The notes below the pieces were generated by a model. It made no database searches. It worked only from the letters and a program-made list of their open reading frames with translations, and had not been told where the DNA came from. From Pseudisothecium myosuroides (Eukaryota > Streptophyta > Bryopsida > Hypnales > Lembophyllaceae): a stretch of 64,000 nt of DNA. Below are positions 4,316 through 58,924 of this stretch, piece by piece; within the stretch, counting starts at the first letter, position 1; every line of letters starts with the position of its first letter. The stretch spans positions 27,941,288 to 28,005,287 of the forward strand of contig OX637288.1 in the NCBI GenBank assembly GCA_951799445.1, read 5' to 3'. The translations under genes and the position numbers were made by a program.

Positions 4316-5214
4316 TTAACCCTTAAAAGACCAAGGCCCTTTTTTTTGCTAAAAAACACTCAAAACTGCCATTTCTAATGCAAAGAGTAAAAAACTTTGA
4401 AGTTTTTTTTTTGCACACCTAACCGTAGGAGCTTACACCTAACTAATATAAAAATTTGTGGAAAAAATTTCAAAAATTTTGACCACACAGATTGCAAGAG
4501 ATTTGTGTTGAAAGTGAAGAAATCAAGTTTTTTTGCACCTAACCTTGCATGATTAAATTGTTTAACTTTGAACCTTCTTAACTTAAATTTTTTGCACTAT
4601 AGAGTTTAGAGGCTTGAATCTTTATGGTGGGGAATTGAGTTGAGAGTCTAAGAAAAAAAATTCAAAAAAAGCTTAATTTTTATTCTTAAAGAAACTATTA
4701 AATAGAAGTAGGTATAAGATAGAAGGAAAATCTAAATTATTAATATCTCTAAATGAAATTAAAACACACTAATCCCAATGGTGAGATTGTTCTAGCAAGC
4801 AAACTAAACCATGTGATTTTTTTTTTTAAATTATGAAAATTCAATTCAAAAGCAAATCCAAAGCATTATTTCTCAAGAAATTGCTATAATTGCCTCAAAA
4901 CAAGATTGTCCATAACTTTTGCATCACTTATCCAAATGAAATAAATCAAAAAATTTCATGTAGACAAAAATGTAATCTAGGGGGGGAGAATTTAATTCAA
5001 ATTTTAGTAAATTTTTTTGTTGCCTGGTCTCCCTTGTTTTAAGCTTATTTTGGCATACCTTTTGTTCTAAGGCACCAATTATAGTTTTATGAAGCTAATC
5101 AATTTTTCTATCTTCAAAGAAAGTTTCAAAAAATAATGACAAAAATTGGCACCGTAGGTACCTGCCCAAAATCCAATTTATCTCCTAAGGGGACAATGGT
5201 CCTTTAGGGGTTAA
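4316..5214 (+). mobile_element. TTAA-flanked short TIR element, copy A
   Basis: A non-coding 891-bp element (4320-5210) with ends CCCTTAAAAGACCAAGG and GGACAATGGTCCTTTAGGGG, bounded by TTAA at 4316-4319 and 5211-5214. The interior shares blocks with copies B, C and E: aaacactcaaaactgcc near the left end, ctaaccgtagg, and aatcccaatggtgagattgt in the right half. TTAA duplication with CCC...GGG ends is the hallmark of the piggyBac superfamily. No transposase is encoded, so mobilisation would be in trans. The superfamily assignment is inference from the ends alone. Confidence 0.8.
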
Positions 5215-8200
5215 GAAATGACACTAATAATATCAAAACATGTCATGAAGAAGAAGTTAAATCAAAAGAACGTGTACCCAAAATCGACCACTTGTAAGGT
5301 TGTCACCTCCATAATACTACGGTGGAAACACCCAAAACCGTCAATATTAAGCAGTTCAACATAGTTGGAGGCACCTTTTCCTAATAATAATAATTTTTAG
5401 TATTGGCATGTGAAAATCATGAATATTAAAAAAAAATAGATTTTTCGGATGTGGTATATAATTTCTATGATTTTTCAAAGTGCCAACTCTCTAGACCATT
5501 GAAATTGTCACATAGGTGAACCCTACACCAAAATATGGAAACATCAAATGTCAATGAATCAAAATTAAGTATGTGTCCTTCAAATGTGTCAGCAAGTCAA
5601 AGCTAAGCATTTCAAGGACACATTAATGGGAAGTCTAGGGACAGATTTAGTGACAATCTAAGATACATGAATGGAAACAAGGACACTAATGGGTGTTTCT
5701 ACCTTATAAATAGAACAATTTATTATAAATGACTGTCAATTCCACCTTACACTTGTCTTTCCAATGCTCATCATTTTGAGTATCCTCATTATTTAATTTT
5801 CCTTCTAAAGTAGGGGTCAACATTCACAACGGGTTGATTGTGATTTGTGGTTATTTTACTGGTACATGACACATGCCTTGGGATGTAAAGTGCAGTTGTT
5901 GGTTGTTGATGGGTGTTGTGCGGGTGTGCCATTAGAAGAAGAATCAGGCCTGAAGAAGGCAACGAGTTCTCGGATATTGGGAAAAGCTGGCCAAACCTAA
6001 AAAAAATAAAAAAAATAAAGCAAAATACAAGGCTTGAATTGCGAGGGAGATTTTAATTAAATAATTAAAATTTTAAAAAATAAATTAATGTTAAAATTAA
6101 TTTGAAATTATAAAAGTCTAAAATCTAACGTGGTCTAGAAACTGCCGTATTAGATTATATATATATAATTATTAAAAAATTAATTAATTGTTCATTTGTT
6201 TAAAAAAAAAATTTAATTAGATAATATTTTGGCTAGCACTATACTGGTTCAAAGCTTAGGGAACATCCTTGAAGTGACCTCCGCGGACTCCTTTTCATTC
6301 TAATGAATGAAAAAAGTGGCCCTATTTTGGGCAATGAGTAGGCCTTGAAATTTTAGGTTCCAACGGCCATGTACACATACACAGAAGACATTCAACCTTG
6401 CATTGGATTAGTTAATTGTACCAAAATAAATTTTCTAGTGCCTAAGCAATGTTCATTGTTTTGTAAAATAAAAATTGGGGTCAGTTGCATACATGAATTT
6501 GCATGCATTTTAAAGTGAGTTTATTCATACAAATTGAATGTTTTATAAACAAAGCTTACATTTATTGAGTAGAAAAATCAAATTGAAAATTGACTGTAGT
6601 ATGAAGAGTTTGGAACCTCAAATACAAAAAAATTCTTCTTGGTTTGCTTAGCGACATTGTATTTTGAGTTTTTTCTCATTAATAATGCTATTAAAAAATA
6701 TTAAAAAAAAATAGGGACATTGCAAAGGACTCATTCAAGTAAACAAAATTTTATGTTCCAATTGTCACACATTTTGCATGAATGCATACATTTTTGTATG
6801 TGGACAAGGTCAACATTGCAATTGTATGTTGCTTCTTGTAGAAGTTTAGATTTAAAAAACTAAAATTAGAAAATGAGTTCAATTGCCTTTAACCATTTAT
6901 CTTAGAGAATTTTTTTGTTTTGTCAAATAATGTTATGATGGAAAATTTAAAGAAGAAACTGTAATCATGTTGTTGGATATTATTAAGAAATTGTTTTTAG
7001 TCACAAAAATATTGTAATATGAATAAAATATATTTTAAAGTTATTAATAAAAGTAATTTTGGAGATTTACATCATTCAAGTAATACTCAACTAGTTTGAA
7101 AAATTTAGAAAGATGCAAAATGCATCTCTTAGAGACCAAGGAACAATATGTATTCTTTCCAATGTCAAAAAATAGACTTCAGAGCCCTTAGGGGTTTTAT
7201 ATTAGGAATTTTTTTAGGAATATTCAAAAACAATTTTGATTATTCATTTATAAATAACAAAGACTTCATATACAAATCCATATATTCAAGTTAGTATTAT
7301 CTAATTTCCAAATCTTCTTATCATTGAACTTCTTAAAAACTAAGATAAGTCATTCTTTATTTTTTAAATAAAAAGATAAAAAAACAAACCATTTTAAAAA
7401 CTTAAGCACATCATTGGAGACCATTTCAATCCTCAAAGTTAATTTTATATTACATCTAGATTAAGACAAGGAGGTTTGGATGGTTGCGTGAAAAACATTA
7501 TTATTTTTTGCCATATCTCATGGAGAATTATTTTTTGTCCATAATTTGCAAGTAGTATAGTTCTAAAGCGTATGAGTAAGTTATACATAACTATTTTGCA
7601 CCTTGAATTAAATGATTACTTTGGAGTATACCGATATTCTATTCAAAAAATGTTGTTTATGAACAACTCCGGATAGGATGTTAAAATTCACTATTTTAGA
7701 AATTTTGATACAATATTTGGTCCCCTCCCCCAAATTTAAATCTAAAATAAGACGTGTGGGCCCTTGAGAATCACCTACAAAATCATGTATTGGAAAAATT
7801 TGGATGTATTGTAGAGATTAGATTTTGTTTTACTAAATAGTTTTTATCACTAAAGTATTGAAGATAATAGGTGCTTTCTTAGTAACATTAGCATTGAAAT
7901 AGGAGATGTTTATGAAATAGAAATTGTTTTATTAACATTTATTAGTATTTATTTTTAAATAACAAAAACAACTATAAATTAAAAGATATAGTCTACTTGG
8001 AAAATACTTGTGATTTAAACCTAATGTCTAGATCTTTTTTTATTCCTACATAGAAATCTTCGATTAAGTCCAATGATACAAAAGTGGATATGTAAAAAAG
8101 ACTCTTGTTTTCTAGGCAATCAAGACCATCCTCATAAAAAATACCTTTTAGGATTCCTTTTATATTTCAATTTTCACAATTTTCTTAAAAAAACCCTCTA

Positions 8201-9330
8201 TATCAATGTAAATATTACTTGCCAGTATAACAATCTTACATTTACGATTGACTTGTTTCAATTCTATTTTAGAATTATTAATAATTTAATTCCCCTTCCA
8301 TCTTGTACCTACTTCTCATTAATAGTTTTTTTAAGATGAAAATTATTTATTTGTTTTTTTGAAATTTTTTTTTTAGAATTTCAAATCAAATCACAGTACA
8401 AAGATTTAAACCTCAAAACTCTGAAGTGCAAAAATTGAAAACTCAAATAAAATAAGGGAATTCAAAGTTTGAAAATTCAATAAAATAAAGTGTAAAATAA
8501 TATTTTTTTTAAATTTGAGCACTAATATCTTACAACCAAGGCTTTTTTTTCATTTTTTAAGAAGTGCCAAAGTGGCGATTTAAAATGTTATAGTGGTGCT
8601 CCAATTTTCAACATTCATCCACATATTGGATAGAAAATATCACATTAGCACATATCACATGCCTATAATATGGTTTTCATCAAAAAATTGGCGATTTCAT
8701 CCAAGATTTTTTTAAATTTGAAGTTTATTTGGTGACTTCATCCAAGTTTTGGGGATTTTTTTTGGCATTTTTTAGCTAGATTATTTTTCATGGTGCAACC
8801 TGACACCAAAAAGCCCCCCATAAAAGCCCTGCTTACAACAAACGTGGTCAAAGTGTTTGAAATTTTTTTGCACACATTTGCATGCAAGTCTAATGCAAGA
8901 TGCAATGCAAAATGCTAAAGTTGAATATGCAAAAATTATCCAATTTTTGGACCAACAATTGCATTCTTCTTCAGCATCCTTTTTACTAGGTTAAGATAAC
9001 ATCTCTTACAACAACATTCTAGAAAAACATGTTACACTCTTATTTATTGCAATACACTTGAACACATTGCCGGAAGAAGCAGTACTGTAGTCCAAACAGA
9101 CAATGGACCAAAAAAATTAAGTACACTTCAGAGCACTTGTAAGACTTCCACTAATATATACCAAGCACACCAAAAGATTCCAAACACAAAAATGAGAGGA
9201 GAGGGTATCATAGAATACAAGGATCAAAATTGAAAAAGAATTGGGAGACAATATGGGGACCTAATTGGGCACTCTCATGCGTGCGTGCATGCACTTGCAT
9301 CAATGAACTAACCACTTGAATTCAAATTTG
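5215..9330. other. long AT-rich spacer
   Basis: No supported gene. Poly-A and poly-T tracts are frequent. A stretch at about 6129-6355 resembles 20650-20870 (acgtggtc-aagaaa-tgccg, then ggaaca, then ggccct and aggcct blocks) and is probably an old dispersed repeat. A perfect palindrome attcaaatttgaat lies at 9319-9332. Confidence 0.45.
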
Positions 9331-9635
9331 AATTTAAAGTCCAAAGCCTACAACCTCGGAGGAAGCTCCGTCAATCACCTCGCAGTCATGAAATCTTTGG
9401 ACACTGTGAACTTTGCGTTGCTTGCTCGCCATGAAGATGGCCACGATTGTGTTGGGAAGCAACGCCTTCTTCATCATCTTGGAGGGATTAGGGTTTGGCT
9501 GCTGCATCTTCACAGGTTCTTGCAAGGACAAAATCTTTAACAGCGAGAAACCAAAGGCAAAGCAATCGATGTTCGGGTGAGACGATGATGGGCGAATGAT
9601 ACTCGGGGCGCCATGTACAGTACCCATGCAAAATT

Positions 9636-10200
9636 TCAAATCCTAGTGAAGAAATTTAAGTTTGAGTCCATCTCAAAGGGAGCTATTTTTTCTCCGATTT
9701 TGTACCCTAGTAGCTGTGGATACCAAGTCAAAACGGAGCCCACCTGCTTTAGCTCGATGCCCAGGCCTTGGATGAAGCGGACATTGGGAATCAAGTCAAT
9801 AGCAACGCTAGAATGCAACACCTGCGGGTACTTCTGAATCAGAACATAGAGAGAGTTTCTGGTCAACTTTAGGGTTTGAAGATAACGCAAAACAAGGCAT
9901 AGTTTTTCCTCATACTACACCCGATCATGACCAGGAAGTCGTTGATGTCCTTAATGGTCAGCCCAATTACGTTATGTAGATAATCGAGGAGTTCTCTCAT
10001 TATACCCTTCACTTTTGGCAACTCCAAATCTCACAAGGCAACTATGTCGATCCCTTGTGACTGCAAATACTCCATCATGCTGGGTTTGTCTGAACCATCT
10101 TCTGGCTTGCTCGGCAAGCTCTGCAGATGATGAATAGCTTCGATAGTTGGAACCGAATGCCTTCATCCTCCATAATCCCAACTGCAGTGAGAAAATATAG
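9636..10200 (-). pseudogene. mTERF-family fragment, most like plastid mTERF4 (BSM/RUG2)
   Basis: mTERF proteins are organellar nucleic-acid binders made of ~30-residue helical repeats; mTERF4 acts in plastid RNA splicing and ribosome maturation. Read from high to low coordinates, one frame gives a repeat with MMEYLQSQGIDIVAL, an in-frame TGA near 10031, then LELPKVKGIMRELLDYLHN and GLTIKDINDF, ending in GCSMRKN. A frameshift near 9900 follows, and a second frame continues with YVLIQKYPQVLHSSVAIDLI and VLTWYPQLLGYKI. The alternating LDYL, YPQVL and LGYKI pattern is diagnostic of mTERF. Only about five repeats remain, no start or terminus is present, and the two lesions make it non-coding. The mTERF4 assignment rests on remembered family wording and is less certain than the family call. 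Confidence 0.72.
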
Positions 10201-10677
10201 AATTTAGTTAGCTCAAATATGACATACCAAATCCCTATTCTTTGACATAGGCATCCAAATACATTTGTCGTCACATCATCAACCTAGACTCTCCAATAAT
10301 GAATCCAATGACGAGATTTACCATACGTGAAATAGCTCTCTCCAAACTTCTCACTATTCATTTTGATCAATACAAATCAGGCATGATTAGCATATGCCGT
10401 CCATCCAGTAGATCAGTTACACGCATTACCGATTCTGCTATAGAATTCGCAAATTATGGGCATTCCACAATTTTCCTCAAATTCTATTCTCGTTCATCTG
10501 ATTCTAATTGTTGGCCAACGTTGCAACTACTGACAATTTAAGCCTATGTAGGAAGGACAACAGTTCCAAAATAACTATTTTAGTCTAGGATCTGAAAATC
10601 TGCAAGATACTATTGGGGCATTAAAAAAATACAAAACAACTTGTATTGTCATTCTAAGATTCACAAGCATAGGTCTA

Positions 10678-10911
<234 letters not shown>

Positions 10912-11178
10912 TCAAAACAGCATTTGAAAAGATCTCTAAACCCTAAACAAAGAGAAAGGCTCAATGTCCTAAGTTAATACAAGTCGAGAAATCAATTCCT
11001 TGTAGGATTAAAGGAGAAATTCCAAACTTACACTTGGAAGAATCGTGATGTGTAACCTTATGTCATGAGATAACCGTGCGCAACGTCATTAATTAGTGAT
11101 CAAATAACATGCTTAGAGGATAACTTTACCACACTGCAGAAAATCACTACTTTTTTTTTGTTGAAATAGTTGACCTAC

Positions 11179-12234: not shown

Positions 12235-13177
12235 TTAACCCCTAAAGGCCCAAGGCCTTTTTTCTGCCAAAAAACACTTAAAACTGCCATTTCTATAGGA
12301 AGGAGTAAAAAAAATTGAATTTTTTTTTTTGCACATCTAACTGTAGGATCTTACACCTAACTAGTATGAAAATGTGTGGAAAAAATTTCAGAATTTTTTA
12401 CCGCTCAGATTGCAAGATATCTGCGTTTAAAGTGGACAAAACAAGTATTTCAGCACATTGCGGGACTAGATTTTTTTACTTTAAACATTTTTAACTTAAA
12501 ATTTTTGCACTACAAAGTTTTGAGCTTCAAATCTTTATAGTAGAGAATTGAGGTGAGAGTCTAGAGGAAAAAAAATATTCAAAAAAATTTAATTATCATG
12601 CCTAAAAAATTTATTAAGTAGAAGTAGGTACGAGAGAGAGAAGGAAAATCTAAAATATTAATATATTTTAGATGGAATTAAAATACACTAATCCCAATGG
12701 TGAGATTGTTCTAGCAAGTAAACTAAACCATGAGAATTTTTTTTTTTGAAAAATTGCAAAAATAGCATTCAAAAATGCATCCTACAAGTTATTTTTTTCA
12801 AGAAGATGCTCTAACCGCCCGAAAAACAAGAATGTCCATAACTTTCTCAAAACAAATCCAAATGAAATGAATCAAAGCTTTCCAGATAGACAAAAATATA
12901 ATCTATGAGAAAAAATATATTTTAAAAAAAAAAATCAAAATTTTGCCAAATTTTGTTTGCTGCCCAGACTGCCCAGTTATGAAAAAAAAGTAACATATTT
13001 GGCCATAACTTTTTACTCCTATTTCCAAATGTGCTGAAATTTAGTGCATATGAAAGATATTCCTTGCACCCACCTTTTATTAAAATTTCAGCTTAAAATA
13101 TGGAAATCTCTAGTCACACGTACCTGCCCAAAATTTCTATACATCCAAAAAATGCATGCCGGTGCTTTAGGGGTTAA
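12235..13177 (+). mobile_element. TTAA-flanked short TIR element, copy B
   Basis: A 935-bp non-coding element (12239-13173) starting CCCCTAAAGGCCCAAGGCC and ending GGTGCTTTAGGGG, between TTAA at 12235-12238 and 13174-13177. The interior is collinear with copies A and C, including cacctaactagtatgaaaa and aatcccaatggtgagattgt. The right end lacks the ggacaatggtcc block of copies A and C. The same TTAA that closes it opens copy C. Confidence 0.82.
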
Positions 13178-14099
13178 TCCCTAAAGGACCGAGGCCTATT
13201 TTCTGCCAAAAAACACTCAAAACTGCCATTTCTATAGCAAAGATTAAAAAAAAAATTTAATTGTATTTTTTTTCACATCTAACCGTAGGATCTTACACCT
13301 AACTAGTATTAAAAAGTGTTAAAAAAAATTCAAAATTTTTGACCACACAAATTGCAAGATATTTGCTTTTAAAGTGGAAAAAACAAGTTTTTCAGCACAT
13401 TGCGGGACTGGATTTTTTGACTTTGAACATTTTTAACTTAAAATTTTTGCACTACAGAGTTTTGAGCTTTAAATCTTTATAGTGGAGAATTGAGTTGAGA
13501 GTCTAGGGAAAAAAATTAAATTCAAAAAAACTTAATTATCATTCTTCAAAAAATTGTTAAGTAGAAGTAGATACGAGATAGAAGGAAAATCTAAAATATT
13601 TATATATTTTAGATGGAATTAAAATATACTAATCCCAATGGTGAGATTGTTCTAGCCAGTAAATTAAACCATGATAATTTTTTTTTTTTAAATTGCAAAA
13701 ATTGCATTCAGAAATGAATCGCACAAGTTATTTTTTTCAAGAAGATGCTCTAACTACCCGAAAAACAAGAATGTCCATAACTTCCTCATAACAAAGTCAA
13801 ATGAAATGAATAAAAGCTTTCTAGATAGAAAAAAATATAATCTACGAGAAATTTTTTTTTTAAAAAAAATTCAAAATTTAAAAAAAAAAATTTGTTGCCC
13901 CCCGTCCCCACGCATTCCAAGAAATGGCATAACTTCTCACTCGAAGGTCCGATTTCAAATTTTTTTTTCCACCACATACCTCTCTCAATTCTTCACATTC
14001 ACAAAAAGTTTCAAAAAATGGTATGAATTTGTCCTCCCGTAGGTACCCGCCCGAAGTCCCATTTGTCCCCTGAACGGACAATGGTCCTTTAGGGGTTAA
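13174..14099 (+). mobile_element. TTAA-flanked short TIR element, copy C
   Basis: A 918-bp element (13178-14095) with left end TCCCTAAAGGACCGAGGCC and right end GGACAATGGTCCTTTAGGGG, bounded by TTAA at 13174-13177 and 14096-14099. It is in the same orientation as copy B, immediately adjacent, and shares one TTAA with it. No coding capacity was seen. The first base of the left end is T where the other copies have C. Confidence 0.82.
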
Positions 14100-14216
14100 C
14101 GATTCTTTCATCTCAAACGACAAATCAAACGTCCCGCAACAATTCTTCACACCCTCAAAATTTTTGAAAATTCCACGAAGCCCTAAAAGTTTGTTTCAAG
14201 AGTGTTGCGCGTGCAC

Positions 14217-27682: not shown

Positions 27683-28081
27683 TTAAGGTGGTTTCATTTG
27701 TAACCAGTTGTCGGTGGCCATATCGAATAGCTCTTGAATCTGCTGCAACTCGTAATCCGCCGCCTCCAGCTCCCTCTGCAGCTCCTGGCCAAACGCTTCA
27801 TTCTCCGCCTGCAGCTCTGCAATTCGCTTGGCTTGCGCTTCCTCGCCTCCTTGAATGTCTGGCAAGGCAGAAACTAAGGCGTCAAAGCGCTGAACAGCCT
27901 GCACAAAAGCTGTCGCCATCTCCTTCGGCTGCTCCAGGGGCTCCGTGGACACCCCGGCGGGTTTCGGGAAGTCCGGGGCCAACTGTGATGGAGGGGCGTC
28001 TCTCTGAATGGTGCCGGCTGCGTTGAATGCTATGTACGCAATGGCACTCGCATGTTCTTGCAACTGCGCTATGATGTCCAT
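27683..28081 (-). CDS. MED21: Mediator complex subunit 21 (MED21/SRB7)
   Basis: A small coiled-coil subunit of the Mediator middle module that pairs with MED7 and links activators to RNA polymerase II. In plants it also connects chromatin marks to defence and embryogenesis. A single uninterrupted ORF of 132 residues (Arabidopsis MED21 is about 139) starts MDIIAQLQEHASAIAYIAFN. It carries GTIQRDAPP (24-32), the FDALVSALPDIQGGEEAQ core (86-103) and the long acidic helix with RIAELQAENEAFGQELQREL, ending in DNWLQMKPP. Every block of the family is present and in frame. Wholly intronless coding is notable but gives no sign of being a retrocopy: no poly-A tail or direct repeats were seen. It converges on NOA1. 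Confidence 0.93.
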   Translation of the reverse strand: MDIIAQLQEHASAIAYIAFNAAGTIQRDAPPSQLAPDFPKPAGVSTEPLEQPKEMATAFVQAVQRFDALVSALPDIQGGEEAQAKRIAELQAENEAFGQELQRELEAADYELQQIQELFDMATDNWLQMKPP

Positions 28082-28704
28082 TCTTACTGTTTTTACAGAG
28101 ATTTCCCCAATATACCAAATCTCCTGAAAAGGCGATACGCGAGGTCAAAGCAACGGACGTACAGAGCTTTGTGAGACGCGTCCAAAGAGAAATTACGTCT
28201 AGCATAATAACATGAGAGATGAGAAAGGCTGTATCCCCATCCCTATTGCAAAATTCTTCCAACCAAAACCCTAATTTACTCCTAATCTCTTCCGACCCAA
28301 AACCAGAGCGTCGCTTCCAATTGCTGCCCTGGAGCTCGATCAGTTCTTCATGGACACTAATCACCCTGATGACGACGCATCACGGACCACATATTTGGGG
28401 CGATCCACTGCCTGCTGGAGCATGAGCGGAGCTCATACTGTGCCCGTCTTCACAACTCCGAATGGACTCTCCATTTTCTGGCCTAGTGACTGAGCTCCTG
28501 GCGCTGAAAAAACATCAGATGACTGCCGAACGGTAAATCCGCAGCATCGAAGAATGAGAGTAACGATCACTCGTGATGAAATTCTCCAAGACAAGCTATG
28601 ACATCGACGGAAATTCAATCGACAATCTCAGAATGCTTAGTGCGTGCAAAGACAAACCCTAAACCATGACGATGATGAACAAGCAGCTCAGGAGAAGGCT
28701 CCAC
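28082..28704. other. MED21 upstream region
   Basis: GC-moderate DNA that should include the MED21 promoter and 5' UTR. A plus-strand frame over about 28310-28490 (DQFFMDTNHPDDDASRTTYL and onward) looks protein-like, but it has no clear start and I do not recognise it. Confidence 0.4.
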
Positions 28705-29935
28705 TAAGGTAGGAGGTCCATAAAGCGCCCATTTAACCCCTAAATGTCCGAGGCATCAAATTTTGGTGTCGACAATAGAGTTATTCGTAAAGTACCCAAA
28801 ACCGGGGTTTAAACCCCGCAGTTTTGTGAAAAAGCAGGTTTTGGACAAAAAGTCAATACAAAAGTGGGTATCAAACTTTCTTAAGCACCCAAATCGACCA
28901 AAAAGAAGTTCGGTCCGGACTTTGCCTGCGGTTTAGTGGTCACTTGAGGGGTTGTGGTCGCCTGCGGGGTCATCCTTCGGAGGAAATTTGTCAGAAAAAG
29001 TCCCCTCCAAATTAGGGGGGGGGGACTTTACAAATAACTCTAATACTTTGAAGTTAAATAAAATTTTATCAAGTTTCTATTTTCAGGAGCTTATATTTTT
29101 GAAAATTTCTTTTTGAAGTTTAGTTTTAGCATCAACAATTCGATTTTGATAATGATTAATTATGAATTTTTCTATTCAAGATTTTGTGCAAGGGTATCCA
29201 TTGCAATCTTGACTTTCCATAGTGTTGAGAGCTCTTGGAAATGAACCTCAAATGTACTAGATCTTGGAGAAAAAATCACATCAAAAATTCAATTAAAAAA
29301 ATTGTAGAGTAGATTTTGAGAGGCCATAAATTGATTGGGGTTATGCATGTTAGGCCCTTTAACCTCATATTTTTTTGGTGACTAGTTTTTTAGATTTGAC
29401 ATGTGAAAAGAGGATTGAAAGACTTCATTGCTTTTGCAGTTTTAACACCCTTATGATCAAACATTATAATCTTTCAATCCATAAGTGATATTGTTGTGTT
29501 TTCTTTTTGTATATAATTTCTAACATGTCTAGTTTGAATTTGTACGGTTATAATTCAAAAAAATTGATGCAACTTATCAAAATGTTGGCTTTTTGTTCAA
29601 TTTAGAGCAAATTCTTAGAAGCTCAAAAAGCCTTGGGCATTTAAGGGTTAAGAGCTAAAAATTAATTTGGAGCTACAAATATTTTTCAGTAAATTTTCCT
29701 TGAAAGGAAAATGGAATTGACATATAACCCAAGTTATTTCATATTTTTGGAACTTCTTGAAATTAGTTATGAATTTTTGAAGTTGGAATGTCGTGGTCAT
29801 TAAAAGTGTCCACCACGTGAAATGTACACTATTTGTAAATTGATGATGCAATGAGGAAGAAAAATGTACAAATGGTGTACATTTCAGAAAGTGGATGCCT
29901 TTAGAGCTCAAGCACTTTATGGACCTCCTACCTTA
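28705..29935. mobile_element. TA-flanked TIR element (host of element D)
   Basis: The 24-bp ends TAAGGTAGGAGGTCCATAAAGCGC (28705) and the reverse complement of TAAGGTAGGAGGTCCATAAAGTGC (ending 29935) form a near-perfect inverted pair bounded by TA. Removing the nested element D leaves a ~316-bp non-coding element, a Tc1/mariner-type MITE by its size and TA boundary. Confidence 0.65.
28733..29651 (+). mobile_element. TTAA-flanked TIR element, copy D (divergent)
   Basis: A 911-bp element (28737-29647) with ends CCCCTAAATGTCCGAGGC and GCCTTGGGCATTTAAGGG, flanked by TTAA at 28733-28736 and 29648-29651. The ends clearly match those of copies A-C and E, but the interior does not. It includes the perfect palindrome CGGGGTTTAAACCCCG (28803-28818) and a run of ten G (29015-29024). 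It lies nested in the TA-flanked element. Confidence 0.72.
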
Positions 29936-29950
29936 TCACATACCACATTA

Positions 29951-32730: not shown

Positions 32731-35700
32731 CTACTTTTCTGAAGAATCATGAAAGCCCTCCTCAGATCCATCTTTGCCAATGTCTGAATTCGCGCAAGAC
32801 GTGGGAGCAATGTCTGCCAGCAAGGTCACAACATCCCGCATGGACGGTCGTCTCGCAGGCATGAAACTAGTGCACAAAATGCCGATTCGCAAGAGTGCAA
32901 TCATGTCTCCCTGGGAGCTTCTCTCACAGTTGGGGTCCAAGATCTCGTACTCACCTTCTGGAGTTTGCACCTTCTCGGTAACCCAGTGCACGAGGTTGGT
33001 TCCAGCTTCTCCGTATATGCTTGGGTCAATTGCACGTTTCCCAGTCACCAACTCCAAGAGGACAACGCCAAAGCTGTAAATATCGATTTTCTCATTCACT
33101 CGGGCACTGAAGCTATACTCTGCAATTGTCGTCCCAATCACGAGGAATCCCAGTGAGACTTGCGGGATAAAATTATATCACCAACTGACTGATGTGACAG
33201 CGCTACTACAGTTCCCTGAACTAGTGAAACAGAGATCAATTGAGACCAAAGCACATCACCTGGGGCCATGTAGCCCAGAGAGCCAGCAATTGTGGACAAG
33301 GTATGCGATGCTGCAGTATCAACGAGCTTGGCTATGCCAAAATCCGTTAGGTACGCCTCACAATCCAAGTCCAGCAGAATGTTGTTGGACTTGATGTCTC
33401 GATGTAAGATTTGGGGTGTGCACTCGTGGTGCAAAAATTGAAGTCCCTGCCATCACACGGGAACACCCAATTCTACAATGTCAAACCGAAACGTTTTGGA
33501 AACACAAATTGTTTAACCAGAATGATTTTCATGTCAATTAAGTCACTATGTTCAAGAGAGGCGTTTCAGTTGAAAATTCAAGTGCACAAAGCACTGAAAA
33601 CTTGGCCTGGTAAACATCAGAGGTTCTGACGAGCGTATAGTGCCACTTCCTGGAAATCTTGCCATTTTTGAGAATATGGTGATCATGAGAGGTAAAATTT
33701 GAGTTTCTAAGAGTGTGGAGCGCACCATGGCTGCTCCCACAGCAATCTTGTACCGAATTTCCCACGGAGGTGTCTCTGCCCTGGTGCCGTGCAAGACATC
33801 TCCCAAGCTGCCCTTGGGCATATATTCGTACACCAGCAGGTTGCAGTCCCGATTCGTACAGCAGCACAAAAGCTTCACAATGTGCTGGTGCTGGAGCCTT
33901 GCGAGCGTCCTCACCTGAGGAGTGTTCATCAGAATCCGGACTGTAAAATCTAGATCCACAGCTACAGCAAATGCATTGGAGAGAAGCAGTGAACCAGTGC
34001 AAACCTCAGTTCCGAAGCCGTGGTTCTTGCTACTCTCCTCTGTCGTCACATTCCACAGTTTCTTGACAGCCACCGTCTCGCCGTTGCTGAGTGTCACCTT
34101 GTACACTTTCCCTGAACCGCCAGCTCCGATCACATTCTCTTCATCCAGGGCTGTCACCTCATGGTCACGAAAGATCTTGTCCGTAAACGACGTCAACGTC
34201 CACATGTCTTCGCCTGCAACAGTGTCTGCATCTTTACTCGAGTTGCTCTTGCATCTCCTAAAAACCAGAACCAGCACCACAAACAGCACAACGGCCACGG
34301 CACCGAAGACCCCCACGATTACAATCCATGCCTGCTTTCCTTCACCTGGAGATGCCAAGGCAACGGCAGATGAATTGGTGGCACAGGAGCCCTCCACACA
34401 CAAGTACGGATTTCCAGTGAAGTTCACCACCACAAACGTCGCACCATTTCCCTCAGTCGGGATGACCCCCGACAGGTTGTTGAAGGCCACATTCAGCGAC
34501 TGCAAATTCACCATGCTGAACAGGTCTGCAGGGATGGTTCCCGTGAGGTTGTTCTCCGAGACATCCAGAGTGCTGAGTTTGTTGAGATGGGCCAGCTCGT
34601 CGGGAATGGCACCGTCCAGATGGTTCCTGGACAGGTCGAGCTGCACAAGCTCCGTGCAATTGCCCAGGCTCGGAGGAATGGCGCCGCTGAAGAAATTAGT
34701 GCTCAATGTGAGCTCTGCCAAGCTTGACAAGTTTCCCAGCAGGGGAGGGAGGGTGCCATTGAACTCGTTGGAGTCAGCTTGGAACTTCACCAAGCTGGTC
34801 TGTCCTATCTCTGCAGGAATGGGGCCGGAAAACATGTTGTCCTGCAGATACAAGATAGAGAGAGACTTTGCGTTTCCGATGCTGGCGTTCATACTCCCGC
34901 TCAGACGGTTCCCGCTCAGTTGCATCCTCACCAAGTTGGCGCCTCCCCACAAGCCCGCCGGCACAGGCCCCTCCAGCTGGTTGCCATCTAATCGCAAAAC
35001 GTCCAGGTTCGTGCAATTGCCATATGTGTCAGGAATCGTACCAGTCAATCTGTTTTCGTATAATCCAAAGAATTGCAACGACACATTGTTGCCCCAACGA
35101 AGACACGGAGGCACAGCACCTTCAAAAAGGTTGTGCCCCAAGTCCACCCACTGAAGCAAAGTATTCCTCCCGAGATCATATGGGATTTCACCAGTCAGTT
35201 GGTTCTGCTGGAGACGAAGTTGAGAGAACCGATCCAAATTGGCAATTTCAGGAGGAATCGGTCCACTGAGATAATTTGATGACAGGTCAAGCGAAGTGAG
35301 AAGCGGTAGGCTCCCCAAAATGGGTGGAATCTGTCCACTGAGATTGTTTGTATCCAAGGCAAGGAATGTGAGAACCGGAAGGCTCCCCAAACTAGGTGGA
35401 ATTTGACCACTTAGATTATTATAACCTAGATTGAGGTAAGTGAGAAGTGTCAGATTTCCTAGACTGGCTGGAATCTCGTCACTAAAGTTGTTGACTCCAA
35501 TGTCAAGCCAGGTCAAGCTGCCCCTCAGATTTGCGAGGCCTGCCAGGTCTCCAATCAAGCCATTTTCGAAAGCAATAAATTGCCAAAGCCTTCTGCACTG
35601 CAACAGAGAGGATGGAAGAGACCCCACCAACTGATTCTGATGAAGCCACAGTACCGTCAAATTCGGCATGCTTCCGAACATGTCTGGAATGTGGCCGCTC

Positions 35701-36780
35701 AGCGAGTTGTTGCCCAGATCAAGTTCTTCCAGATGCGTCAAACTCTCAAGAGAAGGAATGGGGCCCATGATGTGGCACCTCTCAAGATGGAGGGTCCTCA
35801 AATTCGTCAAAGTCAATAGCCCGGTCGGAAACACAGATGGTGGGAAATTCACGCCCTCTAGGCGAAGATCCTCTAAGCTCTCCCATAAGCTCACATTCGG
35901 CCATGGCACAGAGTCCATGACGTCCATATCTGACCCTAACCACAGAACTCTAAGGTAGGGAATAGTAAAGAAGCCCAACGGAAGTGTACCATTCCAGTTG
36001 TTATGTGACAGAGCCAATTCCTCAAGCTTCGTCAGTGAAAGAATGGAATCTGGCATCTGGCCTTCAAAGTAGTTCCAGCCAAGACGCACAACGCGCAGCT
36101 CCTGAAGCTCGTCAAATCTGTTCTCTACAGTGCCCTCCAAGTAATCGTACGTTAGGTCCAGCACTTGCAGATGCTGGAGTTTAGGAAAGGTATCTGGAAA
36201 TTTCCCGCCGATGTACGTCCAACTCAGGTTGAGGTACACCAGCTTGGAGCAGTTCACGATGTCTTCAGGGAAATTTCCGCTCAAACTCGTGTTTCCGACA
36301 TTCAAGGTTGTAAGGTTCCCAAACTTTGCTGCATGCCAACACGCACCATGTCAGCAAAGGTAAGTGCACTATTCACAAGTCACTATGCTTCGGTTCACAT
36401 TATCACAGCAACTTTAGATACACATGTACTGTACAGTAATACAACAGGGCCACTCAAGAGGACGGATTCAGCCACTAACCAAAAGCGAGGGCGTGGATAT
36501 CCCCAGCGAGGTGGCAAAATGCGATAGGGGAGAAGTCTAGTACTGATACGGAACCCTGTGTACATTGCACACCGTTCCAGAAACAAGGACTGGTGTCCGA
36601 AGCATTCCAGTTGCTCATGCTGTCGTCCACATCCACCAAGTAATCTTGCTTCCAATTCAGCAGCAACTTCCCTTCTTCTTTGAGCGAGAGGACACATCGC
36701 AACTAAATGATTGTGCACGCAGTGGCCCATAGAAGATAAGCCCGCCATGGTCCAAGGACACCAAAACTCCCCGTCTCCAT
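32731..36780 (-). CDS. LRR receptor-like kinase (subfamily XI-like) with a stop codon in the signal peptide
   Basis: A plasma-membrane receptor kinase of the HAESA/PEPR/CEPR type, which recognise peptide ligands. Exons: 36780-36480, 36328-34005, 33914-33726, 33446-33260 and 33119-32731. All splice sites are GT-AG and phases match to 1129 codons plus stop. The start [20 protein letters not shown] gives a hydrophobic signal sequence, but codon 26 (36705-36703) is TAG; the frame then continues without further stops into [14 protein letters not shown]. Domains: LRRNT with a Cys pair (about 42-75), 26 LRRs (about 103-740), TM 767-790, glycine loop [11 protein letters not shown] (834-844), VAVK lysine 856, HRD 953-955, DFG 973-975 and MAPE 998-1001. 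The catalytic residues are intact. The HRD is preceded by HHECTPQIL, as in non-RD-negative class XI kinases. The gene is either a very young pseudogene, a sequencing error or translated from another start. Confidence 0.85.
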
Positions 36781-50285: not shown

Positions 50286-53200
50286 CTAGTGAGGCCTCCA
50301 AATGAATTTGGTCGCTTTTTGAGTTGCAAATAATATTGTAGATTCAACACTTCCAAGTTGCTCAACTTTCCCAAACATTTATGTGCTTTGGATTCCTCTT
50401 TCTCTAAGATCCAATTGATTTAGAATTAGAAGGCCCTTAAATCAATTACATAGCTCCTCAAGCTTGCAACAACCTTATAGATTCAACACTCCTAAGTTGC
50501 TCAACTTTCCAAAACATTTGGCTAAATTTTAGATTCCACTTCCTCCAAGATTCAATTGATTCAAAATTGAAAACCTTCAAAAGAATCTAGTAGATTTTTT
50601 AGTTAGTAAAAGCCCTATGGATTCAAACTTGCTCAATTTTCTAAAGCATGTAGGATAATTTTGGAATCCACTTCCTTGAACTTTGCATCTTCTAGGTAAA
50701 CCTCAACATTGCCCAACAACACACTTTCTACTAATTCTAGAAATTGAAGATCTTGAACTATAGCGCATTTCCACAGATCTAGCTTTCACAAATTCATAAG
50801 TTGTCCAAAAGATAGTTCAAGAAAACTTCTTAAAGTTGTGGTATTACAAAGATCTAGGTTTATGAAGTTGCACAATTTATTGAATGACTCACACAAATAT
50901 TGGATAGCACACTCAAATAGAATCAAGTCCCTAAAATTTGTAAGACCCCCAAAAGACTCAAGCAAATTATAGATAGTACACGATTGAAGATTCAAATTGT
51001 TCAATTTTTGGAGGCCTCCAATAAATAAATTTCATCTAGCTCTTCAAGCTCACCAAAATACCATAGATTCAATACTTCCAAGTTGCTCAATTTTTCAAAA
51101 GATTGGATAAACTTTGGATTCCACTTTTTTCAAGATACAAGCTTTTCAAATTTTGGAGGTCTCCAAATGAATATGATAACTCCATAAGCTGACTACACCT
51201 CCAAAGATTCAACACTTCTAAAATGCTTAGCTTTCAAAAAGATTTGGGTAAACTTTGGAATCTACATCCTTCAAGATCTAAGTGTTTGAAATTTTGGAGG
51301 CCTCCAAATGAATTTGGTAGCTTCTCAAGCTTGCCACAATCCCGTAGATTCAATACTTCCAAATTGCTCAATGATAAAAAAGATTCAATTAACTTTGGAT
51401 TCTACTTCCTTTGAAATTTACGCGATTCAAGTTTTGGAGGCTTCCAAATAATTTTGGTAGCTCCAAAAGCCAAACAATAATCTATACATTCAATACTTCT
51501 AAGTTGCTCAACTTTTCAAAAGAATTGGATAAACTTTGGATTCCACTTCCTTCAAGATATAAGTGATTCAAATTGTGGAGGTCTCCAAATAAATCAAGTA
51601 GCTCCACAAGTTTCCTACAATTATGTAAATACAACACTTCCAATTTGCTCAACTTTCCAAAAGATTTGGGTAAGCTTTGGATTCTACTTCCTTTGAGGTC
51701 TAATTGATTCAAATTTTGGAGGCCTCCAAATGAATCTGGTAGATTCTTCATCACAAAGTTTAGACCCTACGATTTGGCAACAATTATCGTGAGGTTATCG
51801 TTGTTTCATGGGTTCGTACCATAACCGCATTGACTTAGTGTATTTTTACGCACTGAATCAGTGCGAAAACAATGAATATCAATAGCATACAGTTTTTGTA
51901 CTTTAACTATACAATTGTTGTGTCAAAACTGCACAGCAATCATATAGTTAAAGTATATAAACCGTACGCTATTGATATTCATTGTTTTCGCACTGATTCA
52001 GTGCGTAAAAATACACTGAGTCAGTGCAATTAAGGTACGAACCCATGAAACTATGATAACCGCACGATAATTGTTGCCAAATCATAGGGTCTAAACTTTG
52101 TGATCTTGAGCTCCCTACAAGACCACAGATTCAACACTTCTAAGTTGCTCAACATTCCAAAAGATTTGGGTAAACTTTGGATTCCACTTCCTTCAAGATC
52201 CAATTGATTCAAATTTTGGAGGCTTCCAAATGAATTTGGTAGATTCTTGAGCTCTCTACAAGACCATAGATTCAACACTTCCAAATTGTTCAACTTTTTA
52301 AGCGATTTGGATAAACTTTGCATTCCACTTTCTTTTGGATTTAAGCTTTTCAAAATTTCAAGGTCCCCTAATGACTCTGGTATCTCAACAAACTTGTGAC
52401 AATCCCGTAAATTTAGCACTTCCAAGTTGTTCAACTTTCCAAAAGATTTGGATAAATTTTGGATTCCACTTCCTTCAAGATCCAAGATTTTCAAATTATG
52501 GAGGACTCCAAATGAATCTGGCAGCTCAACAAACTCCCTACAATTCCGTAAATTTAACACTTCTAAGTTGTTCAACTCTCCAAAAGACTTGAATAAACTT
52601 TGGATTCTACTTCCTCCAAGATCCAAGATTTTCAAATTTAGGAGGCCTCCAAACAAATCTGGTAGCTCTATGAACTCACCACAATACAATAGACTTAGTG
52701 CTTCCAACTTGCTCAGCTTTCCAAAAAAATTGGATAAACCTTGGATTCTAATCCTTCCACTTCGCTTGAAATCCAAACATTTCAAATTTTGGAGACCTCC
52801 AAATGAATCTGGTAGTTCCACAAGCTCACTACAATGCATTAGATTCAACACTTCCAACTTGCTCAATTTTCCAAAAGACTTGGGTAAACTTTGGATTCTA
52901 CTATCTCCAAGATCCAAATGGTTCAAACTTTGGAGGCCTCCAAACAAATCTGGTAGCTCTATAAGCTCCCTACAATTCTGTAAATTCAACACTTTCAAGT
53001 AGTTCAACTTTCCAAAAGATTTGGATAAACTTTGGATTCCACTATCTCTAAGATCAAAGTGCTTCCAATCTTAGAGGCCTCCAAATGAATTTGGTAGCTC
53101 CATGAGCTCACTACAATTCCGTAGATTCAACACTTCCAAGTTGCTCAATTTTCCAAAAGATTTGGGCAAACTTCGGATTCCACTTCCTTCGAGATCCAAT

Positions 53201-53397
53201 TGACTCAAATTTTGGAGGCCTCCAAATGAATCTGGTAGCTCTACAAGACTATAACAAGCCCGTAGATTCAACACTTCCAACTTCTTCAAATTTGCAAAAG
53301 ATTTAGGTAATGTATCCATCAAATCATCTCTCTGAAACAACATCACCAATTCACTGTTCTTAGGTGCCTTTGGAAAATGTTTCAAAGGTGCATGCAC
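50286..53397 (-). repeat. tandem ~141-bp double-LRR units
   Basis: The encoded unit is about 47 residues made of two LRRs: ELPDSFGGLQNLNQLDLEGS then IQSLPKSFGKLSNLEVLNL, ending in a Cys. About seven consecutive units are open at 53007-52051, with further units at 53397-53071 and 51754-51482 and increasingly degenerate ones down to 50286. DNA identity between units is high. Confidence 0.85.
51745..52107. mobile_element. palindromic MITE inserted in the LRR array
   Basis: A 353-bp near-complete hairpin (51751-52103) with ends TCACAAAGTTTAGACCCTA and its complement, arms of over 100 bp and a short loop around 51910-51940. TCTT flanks both sides (51745-51748, 52104-52107), and the LRR unit reads agattcttgagctc in an uninterrupted copy. 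Both arms contain an internal palindrome, CGCACTGA-(A or T)-TCAGTGCG. Confidence 0.82.
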
Positions 53398-55530
53398 ACT
53401 CTTGTTACCATAATCAAGTCAACATAAATTTTCTAGAAGTGATGACATCAAAAACCAGCCACCCTCGCATTTGAATATACACAATCTTTTCATGAGAGAA
53501 AGGTGAACTTGAATACCAAGACTCTATGGAATGATCAAAGTTTGAAGAGAATTTGGTAGTAGCTGCACAAACACATCCAAAAGAAACTCAATTAAAAGCT
53601 TCAATGGGTCAAATTAAGCATAGATACACTCATAAAGAATATATTGCATACTTCAATTACTAAAATTCAAAGAAGAATACATACACAACAATTCACAAAT
53701 CCTCAAACAATCAAACTAAGTAACATTCTTCCTTTGGTCTATTCAAGTTTTCTTACAAATTGGCCATAGTAAAACTGCGTAAAAATACTCAATATTATTC
53801 AAATTGACCACATCAAAATTCAATGGTTATCAAGCATACCTCATTCCTATTCAACAATGCCAAGGATTCAAAACCCCACAAGCGTTTACAAATACCCACA
53901 CTTGCTCTTTCTTGCTTGGAAATTGCACGGCCCATGTCTCTCAAGTGGTCATGCATTCCAAAGGCACCTTCTGCATCCACTCTAATCAAGGCCTTCTTTA
54001 CAAGGCTCTAGACACCTAATATTGCTTATCAACCTTGGGATCTCCAAACAAGTTTAGCCATCTCGACAGATGCTCCCAATAATGCACATGCAATATCCAA
54101 AAACATTTCTTGATGCTATTCCTGAAGAGAATCATAGCTAATCTGAAGACATTCAAATATCTTCCTTTCTTCCATAATAGTGCCACAATTCAACTTCTTC
54201 AAAACTTCCTTCCAAATCTCCACATCCTCTTCATCTCTCAAAAGAGATCCACAGACCTTCAAAACCAACAGAACTCCACCACATGCCATACTAACATCTC
54301 CAACAAGACCGTCAAATCTTGGTTTCACTTTCAAATCACCTCCAAATGCATGAAATGCAAAGACACTTCGAGAATCTTCCTTGTTCAAGATTTGAACATC
54401 ATGAGTGTGAACCTCATATTTGACATGAAATGATGTTGACTTTTCAAATATGCGACGGTTTCGAGAAGCAAAAATGCACATGCTACTTTCCTTTAGCATT
54501 TTGCGTGACATCAAATAATCCATCTCATCATCATCATGAACATCATCTAAAACCAAAAGTATTTGTTTTGTAGATAACCTTTCCTCAAGAATAACACTAC
54601 CCCTTGATTTGTCTACAATGTTATGTAGCAAATCATTCTCACATAAGGCCTTCATAATATGATTTTGGACACTTGTCACACCACCTTAATTCACCTTCTC
54701 CGCCACATCTTCCACATAACATGTCACATCAATCTTTTCCCCAATTGGTTGTATAACTCTCGGGCCAAAGTGGACTTTCCAATTCCACCCATTCCCCACA
54801 ATCCCAACATCAACACTTTCTTCTCATCAAGTGCTTGAATGAGGTTCTTAGCAACTTGCTTCACTCCCACAATATGATCACCTACATCCAAGGGAAGGGA
54901 CTTATTTGCCAATTCAAAGATCTTTCCAACAACTTCCAACACCAAGTCCTTTTCCAATCTGCAAACAATTTGAAACAAAATTCATTAATACCAACTACAA
55001 TGCCAATGTCAAGTTCAACTACAATACTCTTCAAAATACAATGCACATGCACATACTTACCTCTTGTCTTCCACTTTGTACACACAACCATTGAGCTTGG
55101 AAGCTGTTTTCAAATTTACCCTCCATTCTTCAATCAAAGTCTTATCATGCCTCTCTGCCAACCTCGTAAATCCACTAGCCAATTGACCTTTTTCTGGAAA
55201 ACTCACTTCCCATGGCTAAACTTTGTAGAAGATTGGGAACACCTTCATTGAAGGAGAGTTCAACATTGCATGTAACTCTTTCAAACACGACTTTGATTGT
55301 GCAAAACTCTTGGAAAAGATGACTAGGGTTAGAGGTGTTGTCTGGATAGCATGATCAATGCATTTCCAAGCATCTTGGCCTTTACCAATGGATATGCAAT
55401 CCAACTCTTTTCAAAGCTTCATATAAATAGCCCACGAAACCTGTCTTGGTGTCAGAGCCTCTATGACTCATGAATACATCATAGTTTCCAAATTCATTTG
55501 CACAACAACCAATGATCAATCTTATTGACA

Positions 55531-56196
55531 AATCAACAATTCAACAATTTATGTTTGAAATCACATTCAAATTCACCAACAAAAAACTATGAGCCATGAT
55601 ACTGAAAACTCAATATGAAAAGGAAAGGTCACTAGTAAAATAAATCTCTATACCTTCAAGTATACAAAATTTCTTCGAATGCTTAGCACTACTTTCTATA
55701 GCGCTTGTCATGCCTCACCGCTACAAAATTGAAATTGGTAACTATGAGTTTAAGAACAGAAGAACATACTACTTTATGTTTCACCAATCCCACATAAAGA
55801 ATGAGCCACTTCTTCTTGCCATCTTTGAATCCTAAGTTCCAAAAAGGATTTTTGTCAACACAATGTATATGACAAGTGAAAAAAAATTTGGAAGTTGCTT
55901 GAATACTATCAAATGTTGTCAAATTGCTTTTCTATATGTGGCACTTTATACCTCATACAAGATTCCAATGTAGTAGAATTGTATGCTGCAAAAAGGAATT
56001 TCAGACCACCATAAGTCTAGTGAATACCATCAATAGGTGAATCGAGGAAGAATTAAACTCAAGAGTCGCTATAGTGCTTCCTAAAATCACTCCATAACGA
56101 TTTCTTCAAAAGAGAATGCATATATTTCCATTAAGCCACATGTGAGAAAGATATGCCAACTTGTACCTCATGTGTCCAATTCCTCAAGAAAGTACA
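55531..56196. other. TNL upstream spacer
   Basis: No supported gene. A minus-strand ORF at 55922-55689 has no recognisable features. Confidence 0.45.
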
Positions 56197-56413
56197 AACC
56201 ACTACAAGAGAAAGGGGTGTTTTAAGTGAGTTTTTAAGTAGTGTCCTAGACACATGATTTTAAGTAATGACCTTTTGAGGAGATTTTTAGCAAAAAACAT
56301 GTGTTTTAAGTCAAATTTTGCTAAAAATTTCTTTAAAGGTCATTACTTAAAATCATGTGTCTAGGACACTACTTAAAAACTCACTTAAAACACCCCTTTC
56401 TCTTGTAGTGAAC
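56197..56413. mobile_element. CACTA-type foldback MITE
   Basis: A 211-bp element (56200-56410) with ends CACTACAAGAGAAAGGGG and the exact complement, long arms (GTGTTTTAAGTGAG..., TTTAAGTA..., CTAGACACATGATTTTAAGT) and an AAC target duplication at 56197-56199 and 56411-56413. CACTACAAGA ends with a 3-bp duplication are classic for plant CACTA (CMC) elements. Confidence 0.9.
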
Positions 56414-58018
56414 CTTTTAGGAACTCACAAAGATATGTCAATATATGTCAACACATATCATCATATGTCAATATTGTGATTAAGTTAGGGACACCTGAAT
56501 GCGCTAGGTGTCTAAAAGTGTCACTTGATTAGATTCTCCCATTATGTTCATCTCCTAAATCAATATGTATTAGTCAATGAAGAAACAATTCTAGAATATC
56601 TACATTTGATCCCTATTAACTCTTGTATACAATATCCAAATGCTACAAATATTTGATCCCTCGTAACTCTTGTATATGGTATCCAAATAGTACAATCCTT
56701 GGTGCCTTGTAATCTCCTTTCAAAAATCAATTAAAATAGATATAATTTTATTACGGTAATCTAATAATAAAAAATGCACATAGTAGAAAAAATGGCAATC
56801 TTAGGGGTCCCTAGCTTTATATTCAACATCAAATTTGAAGCAAATCCAAAATTGTTCTTACAGACCAAAAAACTTGTCTCTAAGAAACTAATCACGACTC
56901 ATAAAGCCATTTCTTGATTAATTTAGACAATTCATTGTGCCATGAAATCATATATCTTGGGCCCATTTTACAACAAATTAGAAAGAATACATGGTTTGGA
57001 ATCTAAATGTGTATCATGTACTAATATGTTGGTGTATATAACATATGGTTACATGGAATAAAAGCAACCTAAAGAGTTGATCAATGTAAAAGTCAGACAT
57101 TGGAAAATCTTGAAGTTGAATTTTGTTGTGTTCATATTACCTTTCTTCAAAATATTTGAATTTGGGTGAATATTGTTGCCACTGGACAAGCATGATTTAT
57201 ATGCCAAATCATCACCATAGGTTGAAAATAACTAGATTGAGTATTTTATTTACACCAAGGAATACATGGTTTGTTTAAAGAGAAAGATAGGATTGGCCTA
57301 ACGAATAATGTTAAGAATAGGTGTTGGCAAGCCCCATTTGGTGGTTCAATGACGAATTTGAGATGCTATTGAAATAAATCTATTCTTTGAAAGAAAAAAT
57401 CTGAAAGCAAGAATGTTCTGAAACTAAGCTCATCCAAATACATCACCTTACCTCAAAACAAGAATATTCATCAATTCGTTTATCTTTTCCATTAGTAGTG
57501 GCACAAAAATTGTCAGCTAAATGGATGTTCTACACATCACTCCTTCTAGGCCTCCATGCCTATATGTATACCCCAGAAACCAAAATTCTCAATTCATATG
57601 CTATACAAAATGGATTGCAAAGCTAAGCAAATAAGCAAAAACAGGACATAAGGAAACTACACCAAATTGGAACTTCTTCCTAGAACCGCAAACTATAGAT
57701 TCTTGCTTGCCTAAAATGTATTGCTTGTATTCATGAGGGCCTAAGGGCCTAGGATAGCTTTTGGATATACCTATTTCATACACTTTCAAAGTTCATAGTT
57801 TATGCCTCTTGAGTTCAAAAGATGCATAAGAAGAGAATTTAAAATACTCTTTAAACTTCCAAGAAGATCCAACAAAAAAAAACTAGACAATTCAATAATA
57901 AGAACAATGCTCAATTGCTTATTCAGACACAAGAAGGTCTAGTTACCTTAGACAAATCAGTTCAATAAAATCATATGGCGGTGGAAGCTACACAAACTCA
58001 CACCTTCCAATCAGACCA
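56414..58018. other. spacer
   Basis: No supported gene, only short ORFs. Two near-repeats of tttgatcc-ctc-taactcttgtata lie at 56608-56690. Confidence 0.45.
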
Positions 58019-58924
58019 TTAACCCCTAAAATACCAAGGCATTTTCTGGCTCCGGAACCACTGAAAACTGCCATTTCTGCTGCGATCACTCCCTAAACCC
58101 AATTTTTTTTTTTTTTAAATCTAACCGTAGGATCTTGTACTTCACTTGTCTCAGATTATGTGGTAAAAATTTCAAGACATTTGACCGTTCTGATTGGAAG
58201 ATATTAGCATTCAAAGTTGGAAAAAAAAGCTTTTTTGAACTGTTTCCTGCAATTTCAGATGACTTTGACGGCCATTTGTGGATTTTTTTTGCACTACACA
58301 ACAAAAAGTTGTAATTTTTTATCTTGAACATTTGAGTTGAGAGTCGGGGAAAAAAATTTCAGAATGTCAAACCTTAATTTTCACATATAAAAAAATTGTT
58401 AAATAGAAGTAGGTCCAAAATTGAACGAAATACTAAATTGTTAATAGCTCTTAGGTGGAATTAAAACAACATAATCCCAATGGTGGAATTGTTCTTGCAA
58501 ACAAACTTGACCTCGTCAAAAAAAAAAATTGAAAAAATTTGAAAATTGCATTCAAAAATGAATTCTATAAGTTAGTTTTTTTGAAGATGCTTAAATTGCC
58601 CGAAAAACAAGATTGTCCATAACTTTCTCATTATTAGTCCAAATAGAATGAATCAAAGCTGATCTTTGAGGGAAAAAAATTAAAAAAATTAAAAGCTTTT
58701 TTTTGTGTTTTTTTTTTTTCTGCCCGCCGAACTGCTTTTTTGCTTTAGGATGGCATAACTTTGCTCCCGGGCACCGATTGAAAAAAAATTATATTTTTAG
58801 AGAGCTAATGTGATTCCCTATCTTCAAAAAAAGTTTCAAAAAATCAGATCAAAATTTGAGGCCACACGGGCATGCCCAAACTCTGAAGTGTCCCTCGAGG
58901 GGACTTTGGTACTTTAGGGGTTAA
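58019..58924 (+). mobile_element. TTAA-flanked short TIR element, copy E
   Basis: An 898-bp element (58023-58920) with ends CCCCTAAAATACCAAGGC and GGACTTTGGTACTTTAGGGG, and TTAA on both sides. The terminal 20 bp are well paired, with compensating changes relative to copies A-C. The interior is collinear with copies A-C (aaaactgccatttctgc, ctaaccgtaggatctt, aatcccaatggtgga). Confidence 0.85.

Follow-up and report, generated by a model that had tools for sequence, protein, structure and literature searches.

A 64,000-nucleotide stretch of the genome of the moss Pseudisothecium myosuroides (the window; contig C2, 27,941,288-28,005,287, of an assembly of 388 Mb in 222 contigs) raises the question whether short TTAA-flanked repeats in a land plant belong to the piggyBac superfamily of DNA transposons. 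A reading of the letters alone, here called the sequence-only reading, had described a family of about 0.9 kb with five full copies (A to E) and one partial copy (F) in the window and had assigned it to piggyBac. This assignment was supported by the TTAA ends, by empty sister sites with a single target, by the abundance of the ends in the genome and by a coding relative with the domain DDE_Tnp_1_7. The elements are very probably non-autonomous, internally deleted members of the superfamily, resembling miniature inverted-repeat transposable elements (MITEs).

The positions of all six elements were correct (Table 1). TTAA was present at all ten ends of the full copies A to E, B and C having one TTAA (13174-13177) in common. 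The ends had been said to start with CCCC or CCCT, which failed for C (TTAA-TCCC) and for F, where the outer site was not TTAA either (TTAT-TCCC). A, B, C and E were homologous to each other (66-89% identity) and D shared only the ends with them, as proposed; the common interior did not include the final ~234 bp of B, which were unlike A, C and E and matched the end of another element. The elements encode no protein, as had also been claimed: the longest stop-free stretch in the A-family consensus was 85 amino acids (aa), and a tblastn search of the window with three moss transposases gave nothing convincing (best E 0.045). Compared with its own genome, A gave 44 matches, mostly with 78-82% identity over most of its length (40 scored of 11,031 candidate places).

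Thousands of exact copies of the ends were present in the whole genome. The 13-mer CCCCTAAAGGACC, which lacks the TTAA, occurred 14,269 times and its reversed pattern 6 times. A perfect TTAA preceded 12,717 (89%) of these exact ends, giving the 17-mer TTAACCCCTAAAGGACC (6,438 and 6,279 occurrences on the two strands), of which the reversed pattern did not occur. In an alignment of A with 33 genome copies (six of 39 fetched loci were excluded for broken right ends), single-base agreement was 76-97% inside TTAA and 26-48% just outside. By a strict count TTAA was intact at the left end of 23 and at the right end of 20 of the 34 copies. The copies are old, with a mean difference of 12.7% from the consensus. 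Two membership features of piggyBac, the TTAA target-site duplication and a terminal inverted repeat (TIR) of 12-19 bp with a CC[C/T]T motif, were found; the consensus CCCCTAAAGGACCA starts with CCCCT at both ends, with one extra C, and individual copies such as C and F depart from it.

An autonomous source had been predicted elsewhere in the genome, and coding piggyBac elements were indeed found there. DDE_Tnp_1_7 (PF13843) was detected in at least 116 places (898 candidates), all 116 scoring above the curated cut-off (best E 1.7e-83), and in none of 14 control genomes. Elements with TTAA and CCCCTAAAGGACC, or with ends of the CCCCTCAG, CCCCTCAA or CCCCTGAG type, carried this domain. The full-length relative e67 lies between TTAA sites, has the same left end as the window elements and contains a stop-free open reading frame of 780 aa (PF13843, E 2e-79). 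Its protein aligned to piggyBat (E 1.7e-28) and piggyBac (E 2.5e-20), and the aspartate motifs TIDE, TDNFF and GVDVADQ were all present. In an AlphaFold2 model, 434 of 780 residues had a pLDDT of at least 90, while residues 1-228 were below 50, and the predicted fold was nearest to piggyBac (6x67) and piggyBat (9c0f). A search of the genome with the e67 protein gave 58 scored places of 1,136 candidates, with 54-74% identity besides e67 itself; 19 of the 58 frames, e67 included, were free of stops.

A second coding family, t1, was represented by five places (L048-L052) with 99.90-100% identity across 4,116 bp. Two copies compared in full measured 5,414 bp and had TTAA-CCCCTCAGGGCCGG at both ends. 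Their sites diverged immediately outside TTAA, with a 93% repeat further out in both neighbourhoods. The t1 frame is 952 aa long from the first listed methionine and has a Gly/Arg-rich N-terminal stretch outside the Pfam domains. DDE_Tnp_1_7 with the DDD triad was present in e67, t1 and locus L061, and no other Pfam family matched these three scanned proteins. Clusters of cysteine were seen by eye at the C-terminus of three moss proteins, giving the Cys-rich C-terminal feature without a Pfam match. Of the other transposase-bearing elements, e54 and e66 had one stop each inside the domain (L054, L066).

For the analysis of empty sites the flanks of five insertions (A, the B+C pair, E and two t1 copies) were joined around one TTAA and searched against the genome, 40 of 1,718 candidates being scored. 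Among 43 rows, 31 spanned the junction without the element (A 15, B+C 6, E 10), 10 were the sites themselves and 2 were side pieces. No junction-spanning empty sister of the two t1 copies was found in this search. An earlier joined-flank search had given three junction-spanning matches, of which two were used, the third being L026 on itself. The letters were read for one sister per insertion (3 of 31). The sister of A had a single TTAA with an adjoining 5-base gap, that of the B+C pair a single TTAA, and the one read of the ten sisters spanning the E junction CCAA. The empty sister of D read CTAA and that of L033, a copy elsewhere in the genome, TTCC. Every empty site read had one 4-base unit. 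All four full-element insertions in the window thus have one-site sisters, with TTAA itself in two of the four. The sisters are diverged paralogous copies, not alleles.

The window copies could also be connected with e67. The right 217 bp of B were 74.7% identical to the left end of e67 (E 1.6e-35). The right-end region of e67 was matched by positions 1-199 of the A-family consensus (E 1e-12), by C (1-121, E 2.7e-7) and by E (91-193, E 1.5e-10), and the neighbouring MITE m54 matched both ends of e67 (7e-53 and 3e-39). In a control with 300 resampled first-order queries, 11 matches passed 0.01, the best with 5e-4. As judged from sequence similarity, the link runs via B, C, E, the family consensus and m54. 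Against the other four coding elements, A, B, C and E gave nothing at E 0.01. At loci of the L057-L059, L068 and L071-L073 type an A-like segment (66-70%), covering consensus positions 134-699 and more, is located upstream of the transposase. These loci were set aside as a parent of A, since an old nested copy would account equally well for the position and the degenerate ends of the segment.

Element D had been counted as a member of the ~0.9-kb family, a reading that was rejected. Besides itself, D gave 40 long matches in the genome, all starting at D position 309-313 (40 of 5,058 candidates scored), and one further, weaker match (73%) that started at 307. None of the 40 long matches covered positions 46-306. 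In 33 of the 40 cases the long match was immediately adjoined by a separate match to positions 1-45 or most of them; the other 7 had no reported match of this sort. Because the genome matches skip 46-306 and the pieces 1-45 adjoin, D is an element of 651 bp with a 264-bp insert nested inside it, and its length of 0.9 kb is coincidental. The insert is probably a MITE of another superfamily. Four fetched copies of the D family measured 645-646 bp and had TTAA at four of four left and three of four right ends. D is tied to piggyBac by its ends and TTAA only. It lies within another inverted-end repeat (window 28703-28732 and 29652-29936, ends ACTAAGGTAGGAGGTCCATAAA ... TTTATGGACCTCCTACCTTA), of which more copies were seen in loci L016, L013 and L035.

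If each element has two exact ends, the genome contains ~6,360 elements (12,717/2), or ~1.5% of its length at 0.92 kb each. The true number is probably several times larger, because exact ends made up just 11 of the 68 in the alignment, whose copies were, however, chosen by similarity to A. Of 23 pairs of ends facing each other in the first 100 places listed, 18 spanned 905-1021 bp; the remaining five spanned 374, 600, 603, 747 and 1827 bp, so the ends are also common to families other than that of A. The ends of E (ATACC/GTACC) had been taken as compensating changes that suggest selection for paired ends, and this was not supported. In the 34 copies, end positions were changed on both sides in 19 cases against 11.8 expected (same base 12, different 7), a slight excess that is explained equally well by subfamily inheritance. 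The coding element e67 has unequal ends (GGACC/GTTCC), and selection inferred from E alone was rejected.

Full-length piggyBac elements elsewhere in the genome would supply the transposase for the window copies. Such an enzyme, if expressed and active, may recognise the ~14-bp terminal repeat CCCCTAAAGGACCA, act in trans on the window copies, excise them, presumably seamlessly, and insert them into TTAA with duplication of the four bases. Several observations weigh against a piggyBac origin of this kind. Both TTAA sites were intact in just 14 of the 34 sampled copies, and three of the five empty sites read were not perfect TTAA (CTAA, CCAA, TTCC), which is expected of diverged sisters and is no proof. 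Internal stops were present in 39 of the 58 scored e67-type frames. A alone matched e67 weakly (E 0.002), not above the resampled control, and this match was discounted because resampled queries reach 5e-4. No coding relative of the D family emerged: of the five elements tested, none was homologous to D outside the ends (28 bp, E 0.002).

Other superfamilies produce sites that resemble TTAA. An origin from PIF/Harbinger (Tourist-like) elements, which are common in plants and duplicate 3 bp (TTA/TAA), would suit a site that includes both TTA and TAA, and these are the duplications of Tourist MITEs in the available part of a review (PMC10004981). A 3-bp duplication leaves an asymmetric extra base, yet TTAA stood at ten of ten ends in the window and in full at 89% of the exact ends in the genome, in place of a 3-bp TWA, and the scanned proteins of elements with such ends belonged to PF13843 and to no other Pfam family. 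With full TTAA on both sides and coding relatives of this kind, the Harbinger origin was rejected as exceedingly improbable. The empty sites alone cannot separate piggyBac from Tc1/mariner (Stowaway-like) elements, because a TA duplication with a strict T-TA-A preference predicts identical letters at empty and filled sites. The flanking T and A would, however, be needed by preference alone in about nine of ten insertions; this frequency and PF13843 in the coding elements led to the rejection of mariner, the chance of which we regard as negligible. Elements of the hAT superfamily make an 8-bp target duplication. By eye the flanks had no direct repeat outside TTAA, and this reading was also rejected. 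Kolobok, or another TTAA-targeting superfamily, would account for the target itself, since Kolobok likewise uses TTAA; its ends start with AG/RR in the available part of the source (PMC6004289), while those in the window were CCCC/CCCT. The coding relatives were piggyBac by profile, by the sequences of solved structures and by fold, and Kolobok was rejected as very unlikely.

Within the piggyBac assignment, the elements could be long-dead derivatives, no transposase that can mobilise the family of A having survived. The mean difference of 12.7% from the consensus and the stops in most e67-type frames are in keeping with this, whereas the 19 stop-free frames, the younger family of D (88-90% identity between D and its other long matches) and the t1 copies with at least 99.9% identity argue against it. 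We regard extinction as a serious, if somewhat doubtful, possibility.

The relationships of the transposases were examined in a midpoint-rooted tree that combined 22 moss proteins with 33 others; 8 of 30 loci, those whose stop-free frames fell below 430 aa, were excluded. A branch with 100/100 support separated all 22 moss and 17 environmental proteins from the named animal proteins used. Within the former group the moss rows needed seven label changes, so several transposase lineages coexist in one genome. Among the matches listed in two protein searches (33 and 75 proteins) there were no named plant relatives. The 99.90-100% identity of the t1 copies points to recent activity. It is likely that the moss hosts a large and very recently active piggyBac radiation, with several deeply separated transposase lineages, more than 100 transposase copies, MITEs in the thousands and young families of near-identical members. 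The clade of this radiation otherwise holds only environmental sequences here and lies apart from the tested animal elements.

Table 1. Positions of elements and other features (window positions unless a contig is named)
Feature	Position	Strand	Description
Element A	4316..5214	+	Type copy of the ~0.9-kb family, full, TTAA at both ends; ends read directly
Broken relative of A	8036..8537	-	Model positions 188-672; nhmmer E 1.1e-53
Broken relative of A, second piece	8842..8949	-	Model positions 86-186; nhmmer E 3e-7
Element B	12235..13177	+	Full copy; A/C type over the left ~709 bp, e67-left-end type over the right 217 bp
Element C	13174..14099	+	Full copy, from ends and homology; tandem with B
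MED21	27,683-28,144	-	92% to Physcomitrium patens, best match 93%, ~60% to seed-plant proteins
Element D	28733..29651	+	Second-family 651-bp TTAA element with nested insert
Insert within D	28778..29041	.	264 bp; own inverted ends AGAGTTATTYGTAAAGT; AATA/AAT duplication
LRR receptor-kinase gene	32731-36350	-	Seemingly multi-exon or broken
Decayed NBS-LRR resistance-gene stretch	~46-55 kb	-	LRR units in 141-bp repeats; NB-ARC 54116-54685
Hairpin-like long inverted repeat	51750-52104		Arms 173 nt (91% complementary)
Hairpin-like long inverted repeat	56200-56410		Arms 88 nt (94% complementary)
Element E	58019..58924	+	Full copy, more diverged than the others of its family (66-70% to each of A, B and C)
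Element F	63876..64000	-	Cut short where the window ends; TTAT as outer site
Element e67	C11:11,602,571-11,608,136		5,566 bp; TTAA flanks; left end CCCCTAAAGGACCA, right end CCCCTAAAGTTCCA
Element e54			Transposase-bearing; ends CCCCTCAACGCCC
Element e65			Transposase-bearing; ends CCCCTCAACRCCC
Element e66			Transposase-bearing; ends CCCCTGAGCGCCC

The window also contains the genes and hairpin-like repeats included in Table 1. Among these, the MED21 protein marks the host as a moss by its identity to that of Physcomitrium patens. The ten sisters of the flanks of E lie on C2 at 9.6-12.2 Mb, perhaps in a related NBS-LRR cluster.

The sequence-only reading had called piggyBac barely described in land plants. 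A literature search, which did not cover subscription journals or preprints, found no described piggyBac coding element in a moss or other land plant; the name PiggyBac has already been used for plants. In the available parts of these sources, 1,230 PiggyBac fragments were annotated by a RepeatMasker-type method in the assembly of the fern Ceratopteris (PMC6890710) and one fragment of 75 bp in that of the grass Stipa (PMC8319324), and 'PiggyBac' is listed among angiosperm MITE superfamilies (PMC10004981). These records share the superfamily name with the moss elements, and the parts available describe no coding element or empty site. A 2024 plant review, in a statement about plants, counts PiggyBac as a class II superfamily (PMC10794571), while a 2023 review counts seven TIR DNA transposon superfamilies in plants, piggyBac being absent from its main text (PMC10741241), and a transposon study of Physcomitrium does not mention it (PMC7466625), both as far as the available parts go. 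The kind of element is known; the moss host and the abundance are the surprise. Such abundance, with young and apparently intact coding copies, matters for the catalogue of transposons in plants. It also prompts the question whether piggyBac entered horizontally or was lost from seed plants. The moss elements offer a plant-adapted piggyBac system, and TTAA-flanked repeats of bryophyte genomes merit comparison with the superfamily.

Animal piggyBac and piggyBat use TTAA as target and have ends starting with CCC. Their proteins (6x67, 9c0f) share with the moss proteins DDE_Tnp_1_7, the aspartate motifs TIDE, TDNFF and GVDxxDQ and a Cys-rich C-terminus, at 21-22% identity in structural alignment. 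Unlike them, the moss proteins are 780-952 aa long and have a long N-terminal extension, predicted to be disordered in e67 (residues 1-228), and the moss coding elements of 5.1-5.9 kb also differ from the animal ones. The hallmarks of the superfamily are given as TTAA and a TIR of 12-19 bp with the terminal motif CC[C/T]T in the available part of a report on coral piggyBac MITEs (CMITE; PMC2872659), to which the following comparison also refers. The coral elements are like those of the moss in their TTAA duplication, in sharing their genome with coding piggyBac-like elements and in CCCCTCAGTGTCCG-type ends in one family, which the moss CCCCT consensus end resembles; the report also has a section on tandem arrays. 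The coral CMITEs measure ~100 bp and number no more than hundreds in any one family, whereas the moss elements measure 650-930 bp.

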